Of a stretch of 58,079 bases of DNA, positions 5,972 through 50,374 are shown one piece after another (the stretch's first letter is position 1; the number at the start of each line of letters is the position of its first letter). Made by a program: the position numbers and the translations under genes. This stretch comes from Flavobacteriaceae bacterium (lineage in GTDB: Bacteria > Bacteroidota > Bacteroidia > Flavobacteriales > Weeksellaceae): the NCBI GenBank assembly GCA_031277475.1, contig JAITMJ010000074.1, positions 1 through 58,079 of the forward strand, read 5' to 3'. The notes beneath the pieces were generated by a model. It did no database searches. It saw only the letters and a list, made by a program, of their open reading frames with translations, and was not told where the DNA came from.

Positions 5972-6055
5972 GCCCTGGTGGTGGAACTGGTAGACACGCA
6001 GGACTTAAAATCCTGTGCCTCTTTTGGCGTACGGGTTCAAGTCCCGTCTGGGGTA
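5972..6055 (+). tRNA. tRNA-Leu(TAA), prophage integration site
   Basis: A class II tRNA with anticodon stem-loop AGGACTTAAAATCCT, giving TAA, and a long variable arm. Its last 17 nt lie inside the 24-bp prophage attL repeat. The phage therefore carries the 3' end of the tRNA and restores it on insertion, leaving a complete tRNA on this side. Confidence 0.95.
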
Positions 6056-6062
6056 CAAAAAA
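6039..6062 (+). other. attL, 24-bp core repeat
   Basis: Perfectly repeated at 50351-50374. The repeat starts AAGTCCCGTCTGGGG, covers the T-arm 3' strand and acceptor of tRNA-Leu(TAA), and ends in a run of A. Bases on both sides differ between copies (C/A before, G/C after), so the core is exactly 24 bp. Confidence 0.95.
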
Positions 6063-27433: not shown

Positions 27434-28981
27434 CTAAGTAGAAAGTTGAAGATTTGTAACCGGAAATGATGATTGAAAACGATAGTCTATCAAGTGCCAG
27501 AACTGCCAAAAGAGATTGTAGTCCAATGTATCAGAGAAGTGAGTAGCATGTTCTTGAAGCGTAACCTTGCTTCGTTCCGAAGATTTATCCTTCTCGAAAG
27601 CGTCATCGCCTTTTAGCGGTGCATTTTCCATTGAGATGATAAGATTCGGACAATTATCCGCATTGATGCGAACCAAGGGCAATCGAGCATCGTTTTCCGC
27701 AAGAATATAATTTATAAGTTTATATTTTGCCAAGTGTCCCGGATTGTTGGTGTTGGGTGTTTTATCAATCACTTTCCATCCGGCGGCGCGCAACTTATTG
27801 ATTACATCTTCAGCCAACGTGGTTTTGCTGTTCGCCTCTTTTTTGTTTCCGGATTTATCCCTGTAGATATGGACTTCATTGCAACTTGCTTTGTGCGGCT
27901 CGTAGTAATCAATGAAATCCTGAACCACATCATCCAAAATGTTCGGATGCTTGCGAAAGAATTCTTTAATAAAGTTCACCGTATTAATACTCTTGAGGAA
28001 TTGAGACACCGTCATACAATTAATATTGCCACCGAAATCGAGATTCATTTGCAAGGGAATCCCACGCACCAAATCACTATCGTATTTGCAACTTGGTTTG
28101 TAATCTTCAGCAACACCACCGAGCAAATCAATATTGTATTTGAATTGATAATAATGATGTTCCTTTAATTGGGCATAGAATCCATCTTGCACACCTTTGG
28201 GACGGATGTTGAGAATTTCGGCGTTAAATAAAGTTACCGACAACGCTTCCTTTTTCATATCATCAATCCATCCGCTTTTTAGATTGTGTGCGTTCACATA
28301 AGCATTGGCTTTGATAAAACAATACTTGACAGGATTCTCTTTTGAAAGTTTCTCGCGCTCCGTAAACCATTCGCCTTTTTTAGTCATTGCCACAGATGAA
28401 ACAAATACTTGTGCGTGAAGCATTGATGCTTTGCTGAATATTACTTTCTTTGCGCGGTTCGTAGCAATGACATTGTTGTAAAGTCTCTCGTAAGTAAGTA
28501 GAGCCGCCTCATCGCCGATAACCCAATAAGCATTGAGACCACGTCCGGAATTAGGATTGTCAAGCGAAACCATTACGGCAATCGTTCCATTTCGGAAATG
28601 AATAACGTTTGCCCACGAATCCGGAGCCTGAAAAGGCATCTCAAAACCGAGCTCCCTTCCGCATCTGCCGACTACATAATCAATACTTTCATAAAGCCCG
28701 AACATTTCCATACCTTCCTTTGTCGATGGCAGTGTTCGAGATTTAATCTGAACAAATGTTTCGCCGACAATGATTCCTGTCGAGCGCGGCATTTGTTTCA
28801 CCGCTTCTTTGATGAACCAACCGAGTACCGTTGATTTCCCGGTTCCGCGCGCCGCTTCGATATTGATGTTCGGAATTTTAAGTTTCTTATTGGAAAGCAC
28901 GGCGGCAGCCTGCATCAAATTCAACTCAATATTCCGAGTCGGCATGATATGATATTGCGAATTATGAAACATCTTCGTCAT
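27434..28981 (-). CDS. terminase large subunit
   Basis: 515 residues: the ATPase and nuclease that packages DNA into the head. The Walker A motif is near residues 44-51 (ARGTGKST). The Walker B acidic pair is in YWVIGDEAA near 157-158. The C-terminal half carries acidic residues suited to an RNase H-like nuclease (NLDFGG, EVHIYRDKSGNKKEANSKTTLAED). It overlaps the small subunit stop by 20 bp, and a start at Met13 would remove the overlap. In this genome terminase comes after the capsid genes rather than before them. Confidence 0.9.
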   Translation of the reverse strand: MTKMFHNSQYHIMPTRNIELNLMQAAAVLSNKKLKIPNINIEAARGTGKSTVLGWFIKEAVKQMPRSTGIIVGETFVQIKSRTLPSTKEGMEMFGLYESIDYVVGRCGRELGFEMPFQAPDSWANVIHFRNGTIAVMVSLDNPNSGRGLNAYWVIGDEAALLTYERLYNNVIATNRAKKVIFSKASMLHAQVFVSSVAMTKKGEWFTEREKLSKENPVKYCFIKANAYVNAHNLKSGWIDDMKKEALSVTLFNAEILNIRPKGVQDGFYAQLKEHHYYQFKYNIDLLGGVAEDYKPSCKYDSDLVRGIPLQMNLDFGGNINCMTVSQFLKSINTVNFIKEFFRKHPNILDDVVQDFIDYYEPHKASCNEVHIYRDKSGNKKEANSKTTLAEDVINKLRAAGWKVIDKTPNTNNPGHLAKYKLINYILAENDARLPLVRINADNCPNLIISMENAPLKGDDAFEKDKSSERSKVTLQEHATHFSDTLDYNLFWQFWHLIDYRFQSSFPVTNLQLST

Positions 28982-31757: not shown

Positions 31758-33053
31758 TTATTTCAAACTTATTTCCTCAATTTGTTCCTGCGTTAATTTT
31801 TGTCCGTTTTTCCGAATATCAAAAGATAAATTATTGTCATTCATATATTTAATCCAACGCCGGATAATCACATCCGCAAAACGAGGATCCAACTCAACGC
31901 CTCGACATTGTCTCCAAGTCATCTCGCAAGCAATAAGCGTGGAACCGGAACCGAGAAAAGAATCGCCGACAATATCTTTTTGTTTTGATGAATTTTTTAT
32001 CAAATAACTAATGAGATCCAAGGGTTTCATTGTCGGATGTTCCTCGCTTCTTTGAGGTTTATCAAATTCCAAAATTGTTGATTGTTTCCTATCCGAATAC
32101 CAAGTGTGGGAAGCACCTTCTTTCCATCCGTATAAAATAGGCTCGTGTTTCCAATGGTAATCCTGCCGCCCCATAACAATGTGGTTTTTTGCCCAAACCA
32201 AACATTGAGACAATTTGAAACCCGCAGATGTTAATGCGGCTCGGAAATTAGAACCTCCCGAATCGGCGTGAAAAACATAAATCGGCGCGCCTAACTCGGA
32301 ATTGATAAAACACTCCTGATAAAATAGGTAAAGAAAACTGTAAAATTCATCATCAGACATATTGTCATTCTGAATTTTCAATCTCTCTTTCGTGCCTCCT
32401 TCATAATTCACGTTGTAAGGCGGATCCGTTACAATGAGATTAAATTTTTCGCCGGAAAGAATCCGCCGATAACTTTCCGATAAAGTAGAATCTCCACAAA
32501 GAACAACGTGTTTTATGCCCTTTTGAGATGATATTAATTCAAACAAATCGCCAATCGCCGACTTAGGTTCTACCGGAGGTTCGGGATCGAAATCACCTTC
32601 CTCTTCATCCGGAACAAAAGCATTTTCTTTGAGAAATTCCGAAAAGGCATCTACATCCATTCCGATACCTTCCAAATCAATATCCTGAAAAAACTCTTCT
32701 ATTTTGCTCCAATCAAATTCGCCGTTGTGGATGTTGCTTCGGAGCATATATTCCTTAAATTCCTCTTCCGTCAATTTTCGGTTTGGAATTCGGACATCTA
32801 TATCTTCACCTCCACGTCCGAGCAAAAACAATGCGGCAATCCTTTGATGTCCGGCAAGCAAAACATTGTCAATATCAATCGCCGGAATTTCGACAAGATT
32901 AAATCGCTCAAGACTTACTTTTAAGCGATTAAGTTCTTCTTCCGTAATTTGTCTCGGATTAAAATCGCAGGGAATCAAGTCCGATACTTTTCTTTTTACG
33001 GTGTACCACTCCAAAGGCGGTAAAATTTCGCGTTCAGATTTTTCTTTTCTCAT
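31758..33053 (-). CDS. ParB-domain fused DNA methyltransferase
   Basis: 431 residues. Residues 20-100 are a ParB/Sulfiredoxin-like domain (SDLIPCDFNPRQITEEE, VLLAGHQRIAAL). Residues about 165-410 are a beta-class amino-methyltransferase with DPPY at 210-213 before the SAM motif DSFLGSGSTLIACE near 375-388. The adenine or cytosine amino target is not certain, though N6-adenine is most common. Fusions like this are frequent in phages and mobile elements. It leads a group of two methylases and an amidoligase placed between tail and terminase genes. A long structured region lies just upstream. Confidence 0.9.
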   Translation of the reverse strand: MRKEKSEREILPPLEWYTVKRKVSDLIPCDFNPRQITEEELNRLKVSLERFNLVEIPAIDIDNVLLAGHQRIAALFLLGRGGEDIDVRIPNRKLTEEEFKEYMLRSNIHNGEFDWSKIEEFFQDIDLEGIGMDVDAFSEFLKENAFVPDEEEGDFDPEPPVEPKSAIGDLFELISSQKGIKHVVLCGDSTLSESYRRILSGEKFNLIVTDPPYNVNYEGGTKERLKIQNDNMSDDEFYSFLYLFYQECFINSELGAPIYVFHADSGGSNFRAALTSAGFKLSQCLVWAKNHIVMGRQDYHWKHEPILYGWKEGASHTWYSDRKQSTILEFDKPQRSEEHPTMKPLDLISYLIKNSSKQKDIVGDSFLGSGSTLIACEMTWRQCRGVELDPRFADVIIRRWIKYMNDNNLSFDIRKNGQKLTQEQIEEISLK

Positions 33054-38708: not shown

Positions 38709-39080
38709 TCAAATTTTTTTCAAAGTTCTTTCCATCACAAAAGCGTATTGCGATTGATCGTATTTACCATACCAAACTTCTGAGGTTTTATTGACGTATT
38801 CTTGAATCCTGTCCCAAGTCGGCGGAAAATATTTTTCTTGAATCTTCATAATATCTTCCGACTTCAAAGTGTCTCCAAAATAAGCGTGACCAACGAGTTT
38901 GCCGGAAAAATACAACGCATAAATATATTCTTTAGTTTTTTCGCCGTAAATCTGCAAAACATCCATTCCTTCAAAAAATTCGCACATCACCAATGGCGAA
39001 AATCCGATTCCTTTTCTTTCCATCTCTTTTAAAAGTGGATTTTCCGGATTGGGCAAAAGGTTATGTTTTGGTATTGGCAT
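38709..39080 (-). CDS. hypothetical phage protein
   Basis: 123 residues beginning MPIPKHNLLPNPENPLLKEMERKGIG, aromatic-rich, no motif recognised. It is the first gene after the putative origin region, next to the 38249 gene, and probably cotranscribed with it. Confidence 0.5.
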   Translation of the reverse strand: MPIPKHNLLPNPENPLLKEMERKGIGFSPLVMCEFFEGMDVLQIYGEKTKEYIYALYFSGKLVGHAYFGDTLKSEDIMKIQEKYFPPTWDRIQEYVNKTSEVWYGKYDQSQYAFVMERTLKKI

Positions 39081-39136
39081 AATTTTTTTATTTAATGTTT
39101 AATTTTTTTTTTCGGGGTAAAAACGCAAAAACGACT

Positions 39137-39374
39137 TCCAACAATCCAACAAATCCAACAATGCTGATTTTCAAATATTTACAAAGGCGGTTTTGTTTTT
39201 TCTGTTGGAAGTTGTTGGAAACAGGATACACGCTTCCAACAACTTCCAACAACTTCCAACAGGTTTTCCAACAAATTTAATACTTATTTTTTATTTAATT
39301 AATTGATTATTAGATATTTACATTTTGTTGGATTTGTTGGAAACTGAAAACGCTGTTTTTATGTGTTTCCAACA
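39137..39374. other. candidate phage replication origin (iterons)
   Basis: Twelve copies of TTCCAACA(A) or its complement lie at 39137, 39146, 39155, 39203, 39212, 39234, 39244, 39254, 39266, 39325, 39334 and 39367. Copies at 39202-39220 and 39244-39262 form a perfect 19-bp inverted repeat, CTGTTGGAAGTTGTTGGAA and its complement. An AT-rich stretch of about 50 bp at 39275-39322 separates the last three copies. The region is non-coding and directly follows the primase-helicase gene. Iterons plus AT-rich unwinding site is a classic origin layout. Confidence 0.6.
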
Positions 39375-39380
39375 TTTTTT

Positions 39381-42300
39381 TTAAAAAACAAAATCGTCAT
39401 CGTTTTTGCTTTCACTACTATTATTATAAGGGGTTGCAGGGGATTCGTATAAAGTTCCTACACCTGTATTTTTTTCATATTCGGTAATTCGTTGCCATTC
39501 TGTCGCAAATCTTATTTCTTCACTGTTCGGAATTTTATCCAAATTCAAAACATAAGCAGACGTGTTTACACTGCTTCCAAATCGTGTGGATTTTGTTTCC
39601 TCAATCCAATAAGATGACGTTTTCAGTTTTTCAGCAATCGTGGTTTTGTTTTGGCAAGATTCGCCGAAACGTGGAAACCATTCCGGCTGAATGCGGTTAA
39701 ACACTTCCGTAAATCTTATATACAGCAAATTTCCTTCAATTTTTATATCTCTGTCAAGTACCAATTTCATCGTTTCGTTGCCGCGCAAACACCATACAAA
39801 AACATCCCAGAACTTGGTAAGTACATTCGCGGAATCTAATTTTAATCTTAAATTTTGCACGAATTTGTCGAAAACGGCAAGCATTTCATTTGGCGTAAAC
39901 GGAAAAATAATATCGTTGGTTTCTCTCAAAATTTCGTGTGTGGCTCCGAGAATTGAATAGTTGGTAATGATTCTGTCAATGGCTCCTCTGAACGATTCTC
40001 GTAAACTCAAATTCTTTTTATACATATTGAATTTGTCTGAAAATTTTGCCTCAAACAATTTTCTGTGCCAAATTACTTTCTGCATGTAGCCGGTAACTTC
40101 ATCATTGGTCATTAAACTTAATTTTTCAAAATTTTGCTTTTCTTCCGGCGTGAATTGGTTTTTCATCATTTCGCCAAAAATTAATCTCGTGAGAACGGCT
40201 TCGTCTGTCGGCGATTGATTTCCGGTAACGATTCCCGCGCTTAAAATCGGGAATGAATCGGTAGAAACTGCGGAATCTATCGTTGCGCGTTTGTAGGAAC
40301 CTCGATCCCAAAGTCCTTTCAACATTCCGTCAATTTCTTTGTCGCCATTCGTGTATTCCGAAAGATGAACCACCATATTTGAAAATTCACCGAAACTCCG
40401 GAGTTTTGCTTTTCCGGTGGATTGTTTATTTTCGAGATTTATAAAATCGGTTTTGGAAATACCGAACATTTTTTTGATGCAACCGAACAATTCATCTTTT
40501 CCGGTGGACGGCGGTCCGAAGAGAAAATAAATCGGGAAACCTTTTGCCACATCTACTACGATGTCTTGATGCGCGCAAGCAAAGGCGAAAAGGATTCCGA
40601 TAATTCCAAAATCGCCGTGAACTTTCATAATCATATCCAAATATTCTTCCAAAGAATGTGTGGAATTTTTAAGCACAATTCGTTTTTGCTGTGCGAATTT
40701 CGTGGGGTTGTTTCGATAGATTTCATTCGCCGATGGAACGTAGTAAGTGTGGTTATCGTAGTGGAAAATTCCGTTTTTATCGATTTCAATGTTGGGATTT
40801 TCGGGAATGGTTACCGAATTGTTCCAACAATAAAATCCTTCAGTATTCCAACCCAAAACATCTACTTTTCTGCCAACGCCCATTTTATCGTATAAATACG
40901 CCGTGAGTTTGTCGAGTTCTTTGATGTTTCCGTTCCATTGGTAATTTCCCTGCCGCGCGCAAAGTTTTTTAAATTCGAGTGGAGCAGCCAAAGAATCTGC
41001 GGGAGCGTCAAAAATTCTTTCTTCGCCTTTGATGTTGCAAATTCGGAGGAGTTTCGCCGGATATTTTTCATCGTTCATGTGTTGCAGAATTTCCAACGAA
41101 AAATTGCTGATTGATTTGAAAAAATACGGCGGACTTCCGAGATTTTCGAGAACAAAAATTTGATTGTCCGAAACAAATAATTGGTATTTTTCAATAATCG
41201 GTATCAGTTGATCCTGCGGCGTTGTGATGTTGTTCGGAAAAATATAAGTTTCGTTTTCGGTATTGATTTTTCGGATGTTTTCGCTTTCTTGCTCTTTAAT
41301 TAATTGATTGATGAACGCCTGTTTTGTTTTGGATTCTTTGATTAATTTTTCCTTATAAATATTTTGAAGCGAAATGTCCGGAATTTTTGAAATTACTTTG
41401 ATGATTTCTTTGATGCCGTTGGATTTGTCGAGTTCATCGCCTTGAAGTTTTTCCAACAGCAAAACGTTGAATCCCGAAATAATGAAGGGTTGCAGGGAAC
41501 TTTCTAAAGAAACATTTTCGTTTATGTTTTCGGCATTTTGTCGGGTGAAATCGTCCGGATCGGTTTCCGGAAGTTGGCAAACTTCTACGGAAAAACCTTT
41601 GGAAATGAGAATTGGAACGTATTTTGAAATGGCGCGTTTTCCGGCAGAATCGCCGTCAAAACAGAGTGTAATTTTTGCAGTGAGTTTTTTCAGCATTTGG
41701 ATTTGCACTTCCGACAATGCGGTTCCCGAAACCGATACTGTGTTTTCTATTCCGAATTTATGAAAGGAAATCACATCATTATAACCTTCTACAATCCAAA
41801 CTCGGTTTTGTTTTACAATGGCATTTTTGGCGATGTTCAGCCCGAAAAGTATTTTTTCTTTTTGGTAGAGTTCGTTTTCCGGCGGATTCATCCATTTTGC
41901 AAAATCTGAAATTTCGTCTAAATTTCGAGTGGCAAAACCTGTGATTTTATCTCTGTCGTCAAATATCGGGTAAATAAGTTTGTTCCATAATTTGTCTTGA
42001 TTTTTATCGTTAATCAGTCCTAATTTTTTTCCGGCTTCTACATTTCCGGCATCTTTAAAAAGATTGTAAATAAATCCGTTTCCGGGGGCAAAACCGATTT
42101 TCCATTCTTCAATATCTTCGGAATTGTATTTTCGTTTTTCGAGTTCGAGCCACGCCGGATGACCGGGCGGAAGTTTTCTTAATTCTTCTTGAAATTTCAG
42201 AACCAATGCCTCTAAATATTTTCGGAGTTCGGCATTTTTTTTCTGCTTTTCCTGTATTTTTTCTGCGATTTCGGGGTTTTCATATTCGATTGATTTTCCT

Positions 42301-42578
42301 TGCAGTTTGGCTAATTCTTCGATGGCTTCCGGATATGAAATCGTTTTTTTCTGCATCAAATAGGAAATCACGTCTCCAAATTTTCCGCTACTGAAATCTT
42401 TGAATCGTTGTGTTTTTTGGCTGATTAAACAACTCGGTGTCTTTTCGGCGTTGAACGGCGAAGTGCAGAAATAGTTTACACCTTTTCTTTGTGGCTCATC
42501 GCCGAATCTTTGGAAAACATCCAAAATATCGGAATCCTGCAAAAGGCGATCAATGAAATCTTGTTTGATGTAAGGCAT
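39381..42578 (-). CDS. phage primase-helicase fusion protein
   Basis: 1065 residues from MPYIKQDFIDRLLQ; an earlier start at 42626 would overlap the previous gene. The N-terminus matches the DnaG CHC2 region (NYFCTSPFNAEKTPSC), but only the first Cys remains: the His is Asn and the later Cys pair is missing. A TOPRIM domain follows (VWIVEGYNDVISF and LCFDGDSAGKR). The C-terminal half carries a Walker A motif (FGPPSTGKDE near residue 690) and EFSNMVVHLSEYTNGD as a likely Walker B region. It should prime and unwind phage DNA. The putative origin lies right behind it. Confidence 0.85.
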   Translation of the reverse strand: MPYIKQDFIDRLLQDSDILDVFQRFGDEPQRKGVNYFCTSPFNAEKTPSCLISQKTQRFKDFSSGKFGDVISYLMQKKTISYPEAIEELAKLQGKSIEYENPEIAEKIQEKQKKNAELRKYLEALVLKFQEELRKLPPGHPAWLELEKRKYNSEDIEEWKIGFAPGNGFIYNLFKDAGNVEAGKKLGLINDKNQDKLWNKLIYPIFDDRDKITGFATRNLDEISDFAKWMNPPENELYQKEKILFGLNIAKNAIVKQNRVWIVEGYNDVISFHKFGIENTVSVSGTALSEVQIQMLKKLTAKITLCFDGDSAGKRAISKYVPILISKGFSVEVCQLPETDPDDFTRQNAENINENVSLESSLQPFIISGFNVLLLEKLQGDELDKSNGIKEIIKVISKIPDISLQNIYKEKLIKESKTKQAFINQLIKEQESENIRKINTENETYIFPNNITTPQDQLIPIIEKYQLFVSDNQIFVLENLGSPPYFFKSISNFSLEILQHMNDEKYPAKLLRICNIKGEERIFDAPADSLAAPLEFKKLCARQGNYQWNGNIKELDKLTAYLYDKMGVGRKVDVLGWNTEGFYCWNNSVTIPENPNIEIDKNGIFHYDNHTYYVPSANEIYRNNPTKFAQQKRIVLKNSTHSLEEYLDMIMKVHGDFGIIGILFAFACAHQDIVVDVAKGFPIYFLFGPPSTGKDELFGCIKKMFGISKTDFINLENKQSTGKAKLRSFGEFSNMVVHLSEYTNGDKEIDGMLKGLWDRGSYKRATIDSAVSTDSFPILSAGIVTGNQSPTDEAVLTRLIFGEMMKNQFTPEEKQNFEKLSLMTNDEVTGYMQKVIWHRKLFEAKFSDKFNMYKKNLSLRESFRGAIDRIITNYSILGATHEILRETNDIIFPFTPNEMLAVFDKFVQNLRLKLDSANVLTKFWDVFVWCLRGNETMKLVLDRDIKIEGNLLYIRFTEVFNRIQPEWFPRFGESCQNKTTIAEKLKTSSYWIEETKSTRFGSSVNTSAYVLNLDKIPNSEEIRFATEWQRITEYEKNTGVGTLYESPATPYNNSSESKNDDDFVF

Positions 42579-42597: not shown

Positions 42598-42810
42598 TTA
42601 TGTGATGATATATCCTTGATTTTCAAACTCTTTTAAAGATTGTTTGAAATGTTCAATAAGTTTTTCCCGACATTCTGCTTCAGAAAAATTTTGATGTTTT
42701 ATGAAGCACTCGCGTTCAAATTCCAAATCCCATATATACCGATTCAGTGTATCAATCATACTGTAGGAGAGGTAAAACTCTCGCGGTTTTGTGAATTTTT
42801 TAATTTTCAT
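42598..42810 (-). CDS. hypothetical early protein
   Basis: 70 residues, basic start MKIKKFTKPREFYLSY then helical (AECREKLIEHFKQSLKEFENQGY). It overlaps the previous gene by 11 bp and is followed by the primase gene, so it belongs to the early operon. No family recognised. Confidence 0.45.
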   Translation of the reverse strand: MKIKKFTKPREFYLSYSMIDTLNRYIWDLEFERECFIKHQNFSEAECREKLIEHFKQSLKEFENQGYIIT

Positions 42811-44438: not shown

Positions 44439-46136
44439 CTATATTTTTATGGTTCTAAAATTTTCTGCGACCAACGCCTCGCAAAGCACTCGCGCCATAT
44501 TTACTTCTACGGCGTTGCCGATGTATTTTTTTTGTTCCGCCTGCGTTCCGATGAGCGTATAATTTTGCGGAAAACCCATTATGAGTTTCAATTCCGGTAT
44601 TTTCAGCATCCGCATTTTGATATCGGCAATGCCGTAAATCGCCATAAATTCTTTGATTTTTCGCATCGGTTCGGTGTCGGTTTCGTAAACTTCTATTGCA
44701 ATTCCGTTTTCTGTGGAAATCAAATACGGCGGCTGTTTATCCATTCGGGCAATCAGCGTAAAGCACGGATTTTCCACGCTTCCGCCTTTGCTGAAATATT
44801 GCGGATTCAGCAAATAATGCCATTTTCTGTTAGCCGTTATTGTCTGCGCCGGCTCGTCTATTGAACTGCCGACATTTGAAAAATTGGTGTTCATAATCCA
44901 ATGTTTACAAGTGATTACGTTTTGTTTTGGATTATTTACAATCGTTCCGCAGGGATTTTCAATGCTTTGGCAGTTGTGTCCGTTGGAATAGTTGCTCATA
45001 ATAAACTTCGGCGAAATCAACGATAATCTGTCTTTTACCGTCAATGTCGGTGCGGGAACGTCCACAGAAACGGCGTTTATCTCTTGGTTTTGCTGTCCGT
45101 TGTATCTTCCGAGAAATTTTGCACTTACAAGCGAATGATGGTCGATCGTTGTAATTGTTCCGGCGGGTTCTTCGAGGCTGTGATTTTTTCCTTCCGGACG
45201 TCCGCTGTAATATTTTGATAGAAATTTTGCCTCTACTTTCGCAAACCGATTTTCAGTTGTGAGAACGCCGCAAGGTTCGTCTATTGATTTAGCCGTATCT
45301 TTTGGATTAACCGTGTTGTATCGAGATAGAAATGTTGTTTTTCCACCCGCTACAAATTTTATCAGTCCGGCGTAAATTCGTTCCAATGTTTTTTCGGAAA
45401 GTGGTTTTTTGCGGGTAAAAATGCTTTCGCCCTCATCGGAAAAATCCAAAACTTCTTTTACGGGTTTCCATTTTTTTAGATTGTCAAACAAATCTTCGCT
45501 TGCACTTTTGGCGTGTGTAGGATATGGAAAAACTATCGGCAAGCCGTGTTTTGCGAATATTCCGAAATATCGTTTGCGAGAAGTATATGCGCCGTAGTCG
45601 GCGGCGTTTAAAATCCGGTGGCTAAATTTGTAACCGTATTTTTTTATGGTATTAATCCATTGCAAATAAAGTCTGCCCTTGTCTTTGCTGATTGGTTTTC
45701 CGAGTTCGCACAAATCGCCCCAGCACATAAATTCTTCTACGTTTTCAATTTGGATGTAATCCGGATTGATGGCTTCAATATATCGGAATAAATGTTCTGC
45801 GAGTGTGCGGCTGTCGGCGTTTCGTGGCTGTCCGCCTTTTGCTTTGCTAAAATTCGTGCATTCTAAACTACACCATAAAACCACTTTTGCATCGGGATAT
45901 TTGGCTTGCATTTTTTCGATGTGCGCAAGCATCGGCGAGAGTTCCAACGTGCGAATATCTTCCGTGAAATGCAACGCTTCCGGATGATTTGCGGCGTGGC
46001 TTGCGATGGCGTTCTCATCGTGATTGACACAGGCGATTACTTTGGCGCATTTTTCGCCGTTGTGCCGTGCGGATTCTACGCCTGTGGATGTTCCGCCCGC
46101 GCCGCAAAATAAGTCTATGTATAATAAATTAATCAT
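44439..46136 (-). CDS. DNA (cytosine-5) methyltransferase with repeated target domain
   Basis: 565 residues. Motif I is DLFCGAGGTSTG (8-19). Motif IV appears as WCSLECTNFSKAKGG, so the catalytic Cys is probably Cys93 and the usual Pro-Cys-Gln is replaced. Motif VI is ENVEEF at 131-136, and motif VIII SRKRYF. The target region (about 260-480) contains about five tandem copies of an SIDEPxGTITT-like unit followed by an FLSKY or FLGRY segment. Motif X-like IGNAVEVNMARVLCEAL closes the protein. No restriction partner is adjacent, so it is probably an anti-restriction methylase. Confidence 0.9.
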   Translation of the reverse strand: MINLLYIDLFCGAGGTSTGVESARHNGEKCAKVIACVNHDENAIASHAANHPEALHFTEDIRTLELSPMLAHIEKMQAKYPDAKVVLWCSLECTNFSKAKGGQPRNADSRTLAEHLFRYIEAINPDYIQIENVEEFMCWGDLCELGKPISKDKGRLYLQWINTIKKYGYKFSHRILNAADYGAYTSRKRYFGIFAKHGLPIVFPYPTHAKSASEDLFDNLKKWKPVKEVLDFSDEGESIFTRKKPLSEKTLERIYAGLIKFVAGGKTTFLSRYNTVNPKDTAKSIDEPCGVLTTENRFAKVEAKFLSKYYSGRPEGKNHSLEEPAGTITTIDHHSLVSAKFLGRYNGQQNQEINAVSVDVPAPTLTVKDRLSLISPKFIMSNYSNGHNCQSIENPCGTIVNNPKQNVITCKHWIMNTNFSNVGSSIDEPAQTITANRKWHYLLNPQYFSKGGSVENPCFTLIARMDKQPPYLISTENGIAIEVYETDTEPMRKIKEFMAIYGIADIKMRMLKIPELKLIMGFPQNYTLIGTQAEQKKYIGNAVEVNMARVLCEALVAENFRTIKI

Positions 46137-50350: not shown

Positions 50351-50374
50351 AAGTCCCGTCTGGGGTACAAAAAA
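50351..50374 (+). other. attR, 24-bp core repeat
   Basis: Perfect copy of 6039-6062. It is a displaced tRNA-Leu(TAA) 3' end; no tRNA body precedes it. Confidence 0.95.

Follow-up and report, generated by a model that had tools for sequence, protein, structure and literature searches.

An iteron array behind a primase-helicase gene as the probable replication origin of a 44-kb temperate phage of Bacteroidota

In the 58,079-nucleotide stretch of Flavobacteriaceae DNA analysed here (the window), a compact array of short repeats lies directly behind the gene of a primase-helicase, and this array very probably serves a 44-kb temperate phage as its replication origin, with the primase-helicase encoded just upstream as the initiator. 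The best reading, by analogy, is that of a PICI/SaPI-like origin in which the iteron-flanked AT-rich module would be doubled and in which a fused protein, part DnaG-type primase and part Rep-type helicase, would be the reader. A sequence-only reading had taken the region for a probable origin to which the primase-helicase itself may bind, and this proposal is supported by sequence comparison and by a predicted fold; binding of the protein and origin activity at the array are what we infer from them. The phage is likely a 44.3-kb prophage whose att sites are 24-bp direct repeats (AAGTCCCGTCTGGGGTACAAAAAA), one at 6039-6062, which overlaps a tRNA-Leu gene at its 3' end, and one at 50351-50374. 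Between the repeats lie genes for a repressor, an integrase, a terminase, a tape measure protein and a head protease.

As had been noted earlier, the repeats occupy a gap behind the primase-helicase gene. This gap of 300 bp (39081-39380) is bounded by the primase stop codon (39381-39383) and the next open reading frame (38709-39080), and the array within it is composed of the following features:

39137-39160, minus strand: block D, with three GTTGGA iterons read on the gene strand, 9 and 8 bp apart
39161-39202, no strand: AT-rich spacer C/D, containing TTGAAAATCA on the gene strand
39202-39262, no strand: perfect 19-bp inverted repeat, its arms made of block C and a portion of block B
39203-39219, plus strand: block C, a pair of oppositely oriented iterons 10 bp apart
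39235-39273, minus strand: block B, with four GTTGGA iterons read on the gene strand, at spacings of 10, 10 and 12 bp
39274-39325, no strand: AT-rich spacer A/B, candidate unwinding element
39326-39341, plus strand: block A, a pair of oppositely oriented iterons 9 bp apart
39368-39374, minus strand: single extra iteron between the primase stop and block A, present likewise in L046 and L047

The core TCCAACA occurs 12 times in the window array, in both orientations and within 39136-39374: read on the plus strand, TCCAACA is found at 39137, 39145, 39154, 39235, 39245, 39255, 39267 and 39368, and TGTTGGA at 39203, 39213, 39326 and 39335. The earlier count of twelve copies holds for this core but not for the exact form TTCCAACA, which accounts for nine of them, the remaining three cores reading ATCCAACA. 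Chance can be excluded for the array, because 12 copies of one 7-mer per 350 bp compare with a mean of 2.3 and a maximum of 4 in shuffled sequence, and other 350-bp stretches of the 58-kb window hold at most 6 copies of any 7-mer. A whole-genome scan found no second copy of the array in the host genome. The perfect 19-bp inverted repeat (39202-39220 with 39244-39262) and the AT-rich stretches described previously are both real, the spacers averaging 79% AT over 30 loci against 65% for the whole loci, and the TTGAAAATCA of the C/D spacer resembles TTGATAATCA-like stretches at the same place in many relatives. GC skew, which shows no inflection at the array and is dominated by gene strand, was dropped as uninformative about the origin.

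Relatives were drawn from viral contigs, another genome of the host family, and Flavobacterium and other phages. With an alignment as the query, 75 primase-helicase loci were obtained from viral contigs; a search of genome contigs with a single primase-helicase sequence gave no match. The close set comprises 30 non-redundant loci (identity 34-100%), counted after removal of near-copies more than 92% identical and including the window and two Flavobacterium phages. The array lies directly behind the primase-helicase gene in all 30, so that absence from close relatives, which the sequence-only reading had named as a refutation when it asked for this comparison, is not seen. The loci share one order: two reverse copies, an AT-rich spacer, up to five forward copies, two reverse copies, a second AT-rich spacer and one to three forward copies. 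Across the set, block A consists of a reverse pair spaced by about 9 bp (7-10), block B mostly of four forward copies at the helical spacing of 11, 10 and 10 bp, block C of two reverse copies mostly 10-11 bp apart, and block D mostly of two forward copies 8-9 bp apart, with a copy missing or added in a few loci.

An unbiased scan places the densest 7-mer array of the whole locus behind the primase in 29 of the 30 loci, the exception being L055, which carries a denser second array (GGTTACA, eight copies) about 4 kb downstream of the primase. The 7-mer count exceeds every shuffle in 27 loci; for L055, L059 and L089, which have mixed words, the count of any single 7-mer does not exceed the shuffle maximum, and these three therefore rest on layout and not on count. 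Within about 5 kb, the primase-helicase is the sole protein family common to all 30 loci, the next commonest being a LuxR-type regulator found in 18 and absent near the window array. No known plasmid Rep domain (Rep_3, RepA) was found in the genes scanned beside the array, and the loci share no second protein.

The iteron word differs between lineages. GTTGGA is the word of the window and of six other loci, and the others use GTTGAA, GTAGTT, GTAGAA, GTTGAGA, GTTGGGA, GTGTGGA, GTGTTGA, GTAAGGA or GTCCGA, or a mixture (GTGTTCG with GTGTGGGA; TGTTGA with TGTTAGA). Assigned by eye from word counts, the 12 classes require 11 changes on the maximum-likelihood protein tree, which is the minimum, against 21.2 for shuffled labels. 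Inheritance of the DNA would by itself make the labels cluster; what matters is that the words hold constant between proteins of about 59-64% identity, while the spacers between the words have diverged. Since the word changes in step with the primase-helicase, the enzyme itself probably reads it.

The protein and its parts are encoded as follows:

39381-42578, minus strand: primase-helicase gene, about 1065 amino acids, DnaG-type primase plus Cch/SaPI-Rep-like helicase, proposed initiator
41547-42566, minus strand: DnaG-type primase part, with CHC2 zinc finger, DNAG_N and Toprim
39459-41252, minus strand: helicase half, Walker A GPPSTGKD, predicted to fold like SCCmec Cch and SaPIBov1 Rep, unmatched in Pfam
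39465-39746, minus strand: C-terminal domain, winged-helix-like element order b-b-a-a-b-b-a, candidate DNA-binding domain
39430-39442, minus strand: C-rich element CCCCTGCAACCCC, part of the 3' end of the primase gene and encoding SPATP in frame
39381-39413, minus strand: acidic C-terminal tail, ...SESKNDDDFVF, resembling the C-terminal tip of SSB

Translation probably starts at the ATG at 42578 (MPYIK..., common to relatives) and not at the TTG at 42626. The primase belongs to the DnaG type, having the CHC2 zinc finger, DNAG_N and Toprim and scoring above the TIGR01391 cut-off. Behind these domains follow about 620 residues without a Pfam match, inside which the Walker A motif GPPSTGKD is found. 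An AlphaFold2 model built on an alignment of 37 sequences (mean pLDDT 83) predicts that this C-terminal half folds like Cch and SaPIBov1 Rep, which are self-loading initiator helicases: the top Foldseek matches of the helicase half are SCCmec Cch (5dgk, E 6.5e-13) and SaPIBov1 Rep (8tch, E 8.1e-12), and DUF927 phage proteins are among its matches to viral models. Sequence profiles run against Pfam and the PDB gave no match to DUF927, Cch or Rep chains and only weak clamp-loader matches, and P4-alpha-type and D5-type Pfam domains are absent from the window protein and 36 relatives. The C-terminal domain, when taken alone, had no PDB match below E 0.3 in a fold search; its weak hits (all E at least 0.3) include winged-helix DNA binders and PriRep1 amid unrelated folds. 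A sliding-window search for the word reader favoured the ATPase/helical region, and when the domains were compared one by one, the C-terminal domain did not stand out. As for the acidic tail, relatives have C-termini such as DDDLPF, EDLPF and ELPF, 17 of 30 ending in PF, and an SSB encoded in the same genome as the window ends in TDDLPF; to judge by this resemblance, the tails may recruit host replication proteins.

Several known systems offer a standard of comparison. In SaPIs, Rep uses its C-terminal domain to recognise iterons directly downstream of its own gene, and apparently does so as two hexamers; in vitro, Cch2 binds direct repeats that follow closely on its operon, also via its C-terminal domain (PMC7581432). 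Every PICI origin has a pair of iteron sets, one on each side of an AT-rich region, located just 3' of rep, and plasmid replication is driven by a PICI rep-ori segment (PMC6092414). The window system resembles these elements (SaPIbov1 Rep-ori; the pri-rep-ori of the E. coli PICI EcCICFT073) in the predicted fold of its proposed initiator helicase, in an array that follows directly on the 3' end of the gene for this protein in all 30 close loci (kilobases downstream in distant ones), in iterons that flank AT-rich DNA, here twice as A-AT-B and C-AT-D, and in an iteron word specific to the element (PMC7581432, PMC6092414). It departs from them in that a CHC2-Toprim primase of the DnaG type is fused in front, a C-rich element lies alongside and no relation of the initiator was detected at the sequence level; furthermore, unlike a PICI, the window holds a full 44-kb temperate phage with head protease, terminase and tape measure and not a satellite. 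The best fold match of the model, Cch 5dgk, links it to the SCCmec Cch/Cch2 proteins of staphylococcal hosts, whose Cch2 site, unlike the window array, has three direct iterons only and whose primase is a separate polymerase pair. Another parallel is P4 alpha, a single protein with primase, helicase and origin recognition that acts on short iterons in both orientations. The P4 origin uses two separate sites (ori/crr), whereas the window has one compact four-block site and its protein lacks a P4-alpha/D5-type Pfam domain.

Drawing on the SaPI and PICI work, a mechanism can be proposed in which copies of the primase-helicase, in the manner of SaPI Rep, would bind the words that flank each AT-rich spacer and would thereby melt the spacers. 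Two oppositely oriented helicase rings would load at the near-symmetric dyad between blocks B and C, the fused DnaG-type primase would make the first primers, and host polymerase III would then take over, perhaps drawn by the SSB-like acidic tail.

Closer to the window, the Duneviridae phages laban6-1, 23T, 2A, 6H and Ingeline, compared for their replication module only, encode the same primase-helicase family. A four-block array is present behind the gene in laban6-1, 23T and 2A and downstream in Ingeline, with words that differ (GTTGAGA; TGTTTGAA and others). No origin or repeat is annotated at the array site in the Duneviridae records examined, the passages of the Ingeline paper that were consulted make no mention of one, and no description of a replication origin for these Bacteroidota phages was found in the open-access papers searched. 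In the records of phages 23T (L041, KU599888.1) and 6H (KC959568.1), the primase-helicase is annotated as several hypothetical proteins, a split that apparently stems from frame breaks in the deposited sequences.

Among the other explanations, one keeps the phage origin and has the iterons bound by another phage protein or by a host initiator, with the primase-helicase recruited afterwards. Plasmid iteron origins are usually read by a separate Rep protein of their own, which speaks for this view, as does the failure of sliding windows, domain comparison and fold search to localise a reading domain within the primase-helicase. It is nevertheless unlikely, given that no other protein within about 5 kb is common to the 30 loci and that the word follows the primase tree; a host initiator in particular fits poorly with the different words of prophages carried by hosts of one family, where G000 and G033 have GTTGGA and G030 has GTAGAA. 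That the array is a packaging (pac/cos) or recombination site can hardly be entertained. Such sites can hold clustered directional repeats, but the gene for the terminase large subunit is about 10 kb away (27434-28981), the att site is the separate 24-bp repeat at the tRNA-Leu gene, and the word tracks the primase lineage. An operator for a phage transcription regulator of the downstream genes is highly improbable as well: the repeats do lie ahead of those genes, and LuxR-type regulators are common upstream in Duneviridae (PMC8776804), but no such regulator was found within about 5 kb in 12 of the 30 loci (the window included), the downstream genes vary between loci while the array stays, and no promoter-like site was found in the array.

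The inverted words could also be taken for an RNA or single-strand element (an attenuator, a processing site or terminator hairpins in the 3' transcript of the primase gene) or for a DNA cruciform, the latter having been put forward for the 19-bp repeat. In favour of this very unlikely reading are the perfect inverted repeats of the window, namely that of 19 bp and another of 17 bp joining 39145-39161 with 39325-39341, as well as the mixed-word loci L040, L052, L061 and L069, where words that depart from the main one of their lineage recur in mirror image in blocks B and C. In single-word loci, however, the 4-base linker of block C mirrors a block B linker in only three of 16, the window included, and the linkers between words are unable to pair in the other 13. 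The 19-bp palindrome is thus not generally conserved as a stem among single-word relatives, and the long perfect stem of the window arises largely because its words are repeated; the cruciform claim is not supported, and a cruciform was dropped as a functional element. In the four mixed-word loci a cruciform may form, and their mirrored odd words suggest position-specific contacts around a dyad. An RNA element or terminator was rejected, there being no Rfam match above the gathering score and no terminator-like site; the direct copies are spaced helically, and the layout is retained where the array lies kilobases from the gene, so that its independence of the gene's 3' end argues against an element bound to the transcript.

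Returning to the proposed origin, a C-rich element accompanies the array in most relatives. In 24 of the 30 loci a loose C-rich pattern has a match no more than 150 bp from the stop codon, the case of L058 being probably due to chance, and the element is missing from the GTAGAA class and from L053. In 17 loci it is in frame and encodes P-A/V-T-P near the C-terminus, the first proline being CCT and the threonine ACC in all 17 (related loci and not 17 independent cases), as compared with 33% of proline and 27% of threonine codons elsewhere in the same genes. Directly past the stop codon it is found in L040, L043, L061 and L079, and in most of the distant loci it sits beside the array on the side away from the primase gene. 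This pattern suggests that the element acts in cis, as DNA or RNA, and is not a peptide motif; that it is a priming site is a guess.

Beyond the close set, ten loci whose proteins are 24-28% identical carry multi-block arrays of a similar kind, which lie 1-4.5 kb downstream of the gene, and other loci in the same range have no array within the DNA examined. A Porphyromonas gingivalis phage also has a GTTGGA array about 1.4 kb downstream, Cellulophaga phage Ingeline_1 an array 2.4 kb downstream and Microcystis phage Mea-Yong924-1 (L204, MZ447863.1) a TGTCCGA array 3 kb downstream, and in L077 the array lies 6.6 kb upstream. The primase and array of Mea-Yong924-1 are of a type otherwise found in Bacteroidota phages, and its stated host may deserve a check. 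Such distances of kilobases between array and gene in distant relatives count against the main reading.

A reverse search of viral contigs for three spaced GTTGGA words returned 52 stretches, against 43 with a reversed-word control. Arrays that were bidirectional and at the 3' end of an open reading frame of at least 450 amino acids made up 17 of the 52 and 6 of the 43, respectively, and four of the six control stretches are the same loci as GTTGGA matches; the scan is informative only by position, its numbers not being clearly enriched. A DNA pattern written for GTAGAA arrays gave no match, its spacing probably being too strict. Arrays also occur behind other primase-helicases, such as VapE-like proteins with Toprim, AAA_25 proteins with Prim-Pol or PriCT_2, and DUF3987 proteins; GTTGGA arrays of this kind were found at L207:3556, L225:3802, L228:8456, L240:7087 and L255:1024, several of the phages being GC-rich. 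An array behind a primase-helicase is thus a broader theme; the shared hexamer GTTGGA may merely reflect the search, which was made with it.

More tentatively, and with slightly less than even confidence, these loci may represent a widespread class of Bacteroidota phage replicon, in which one protein would combine primase, self-loading helicase, origin recognition and an SSB-like tail, the origin would be a doubled PICI-like one whose word drifts with the protein, and a C-rich, possibly priming, element would lie partly in the 3' end of the gene. The approximately 300-bp compact origin candidate and its protein are available in the isolated phages laban6-1, 2A, 23T and Ingeline as well as in prophages, and about a dozen natural words matched to homologous initiators make the specificity of initiator for iteron testable by swaps. 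A PICI-like origin in full temperate phages bears on the source of PICI replicons, and the gene plus array is a candidate compact vector replicon for Bacteroidota.

Two phage DNA methyltransferase genes of the window are also worth recording, one on the minus strand at 31758-33053 with an N-terminal ParB-like match, and the other, of the C5-cytosine type, on the minus strand at 44439-46136.
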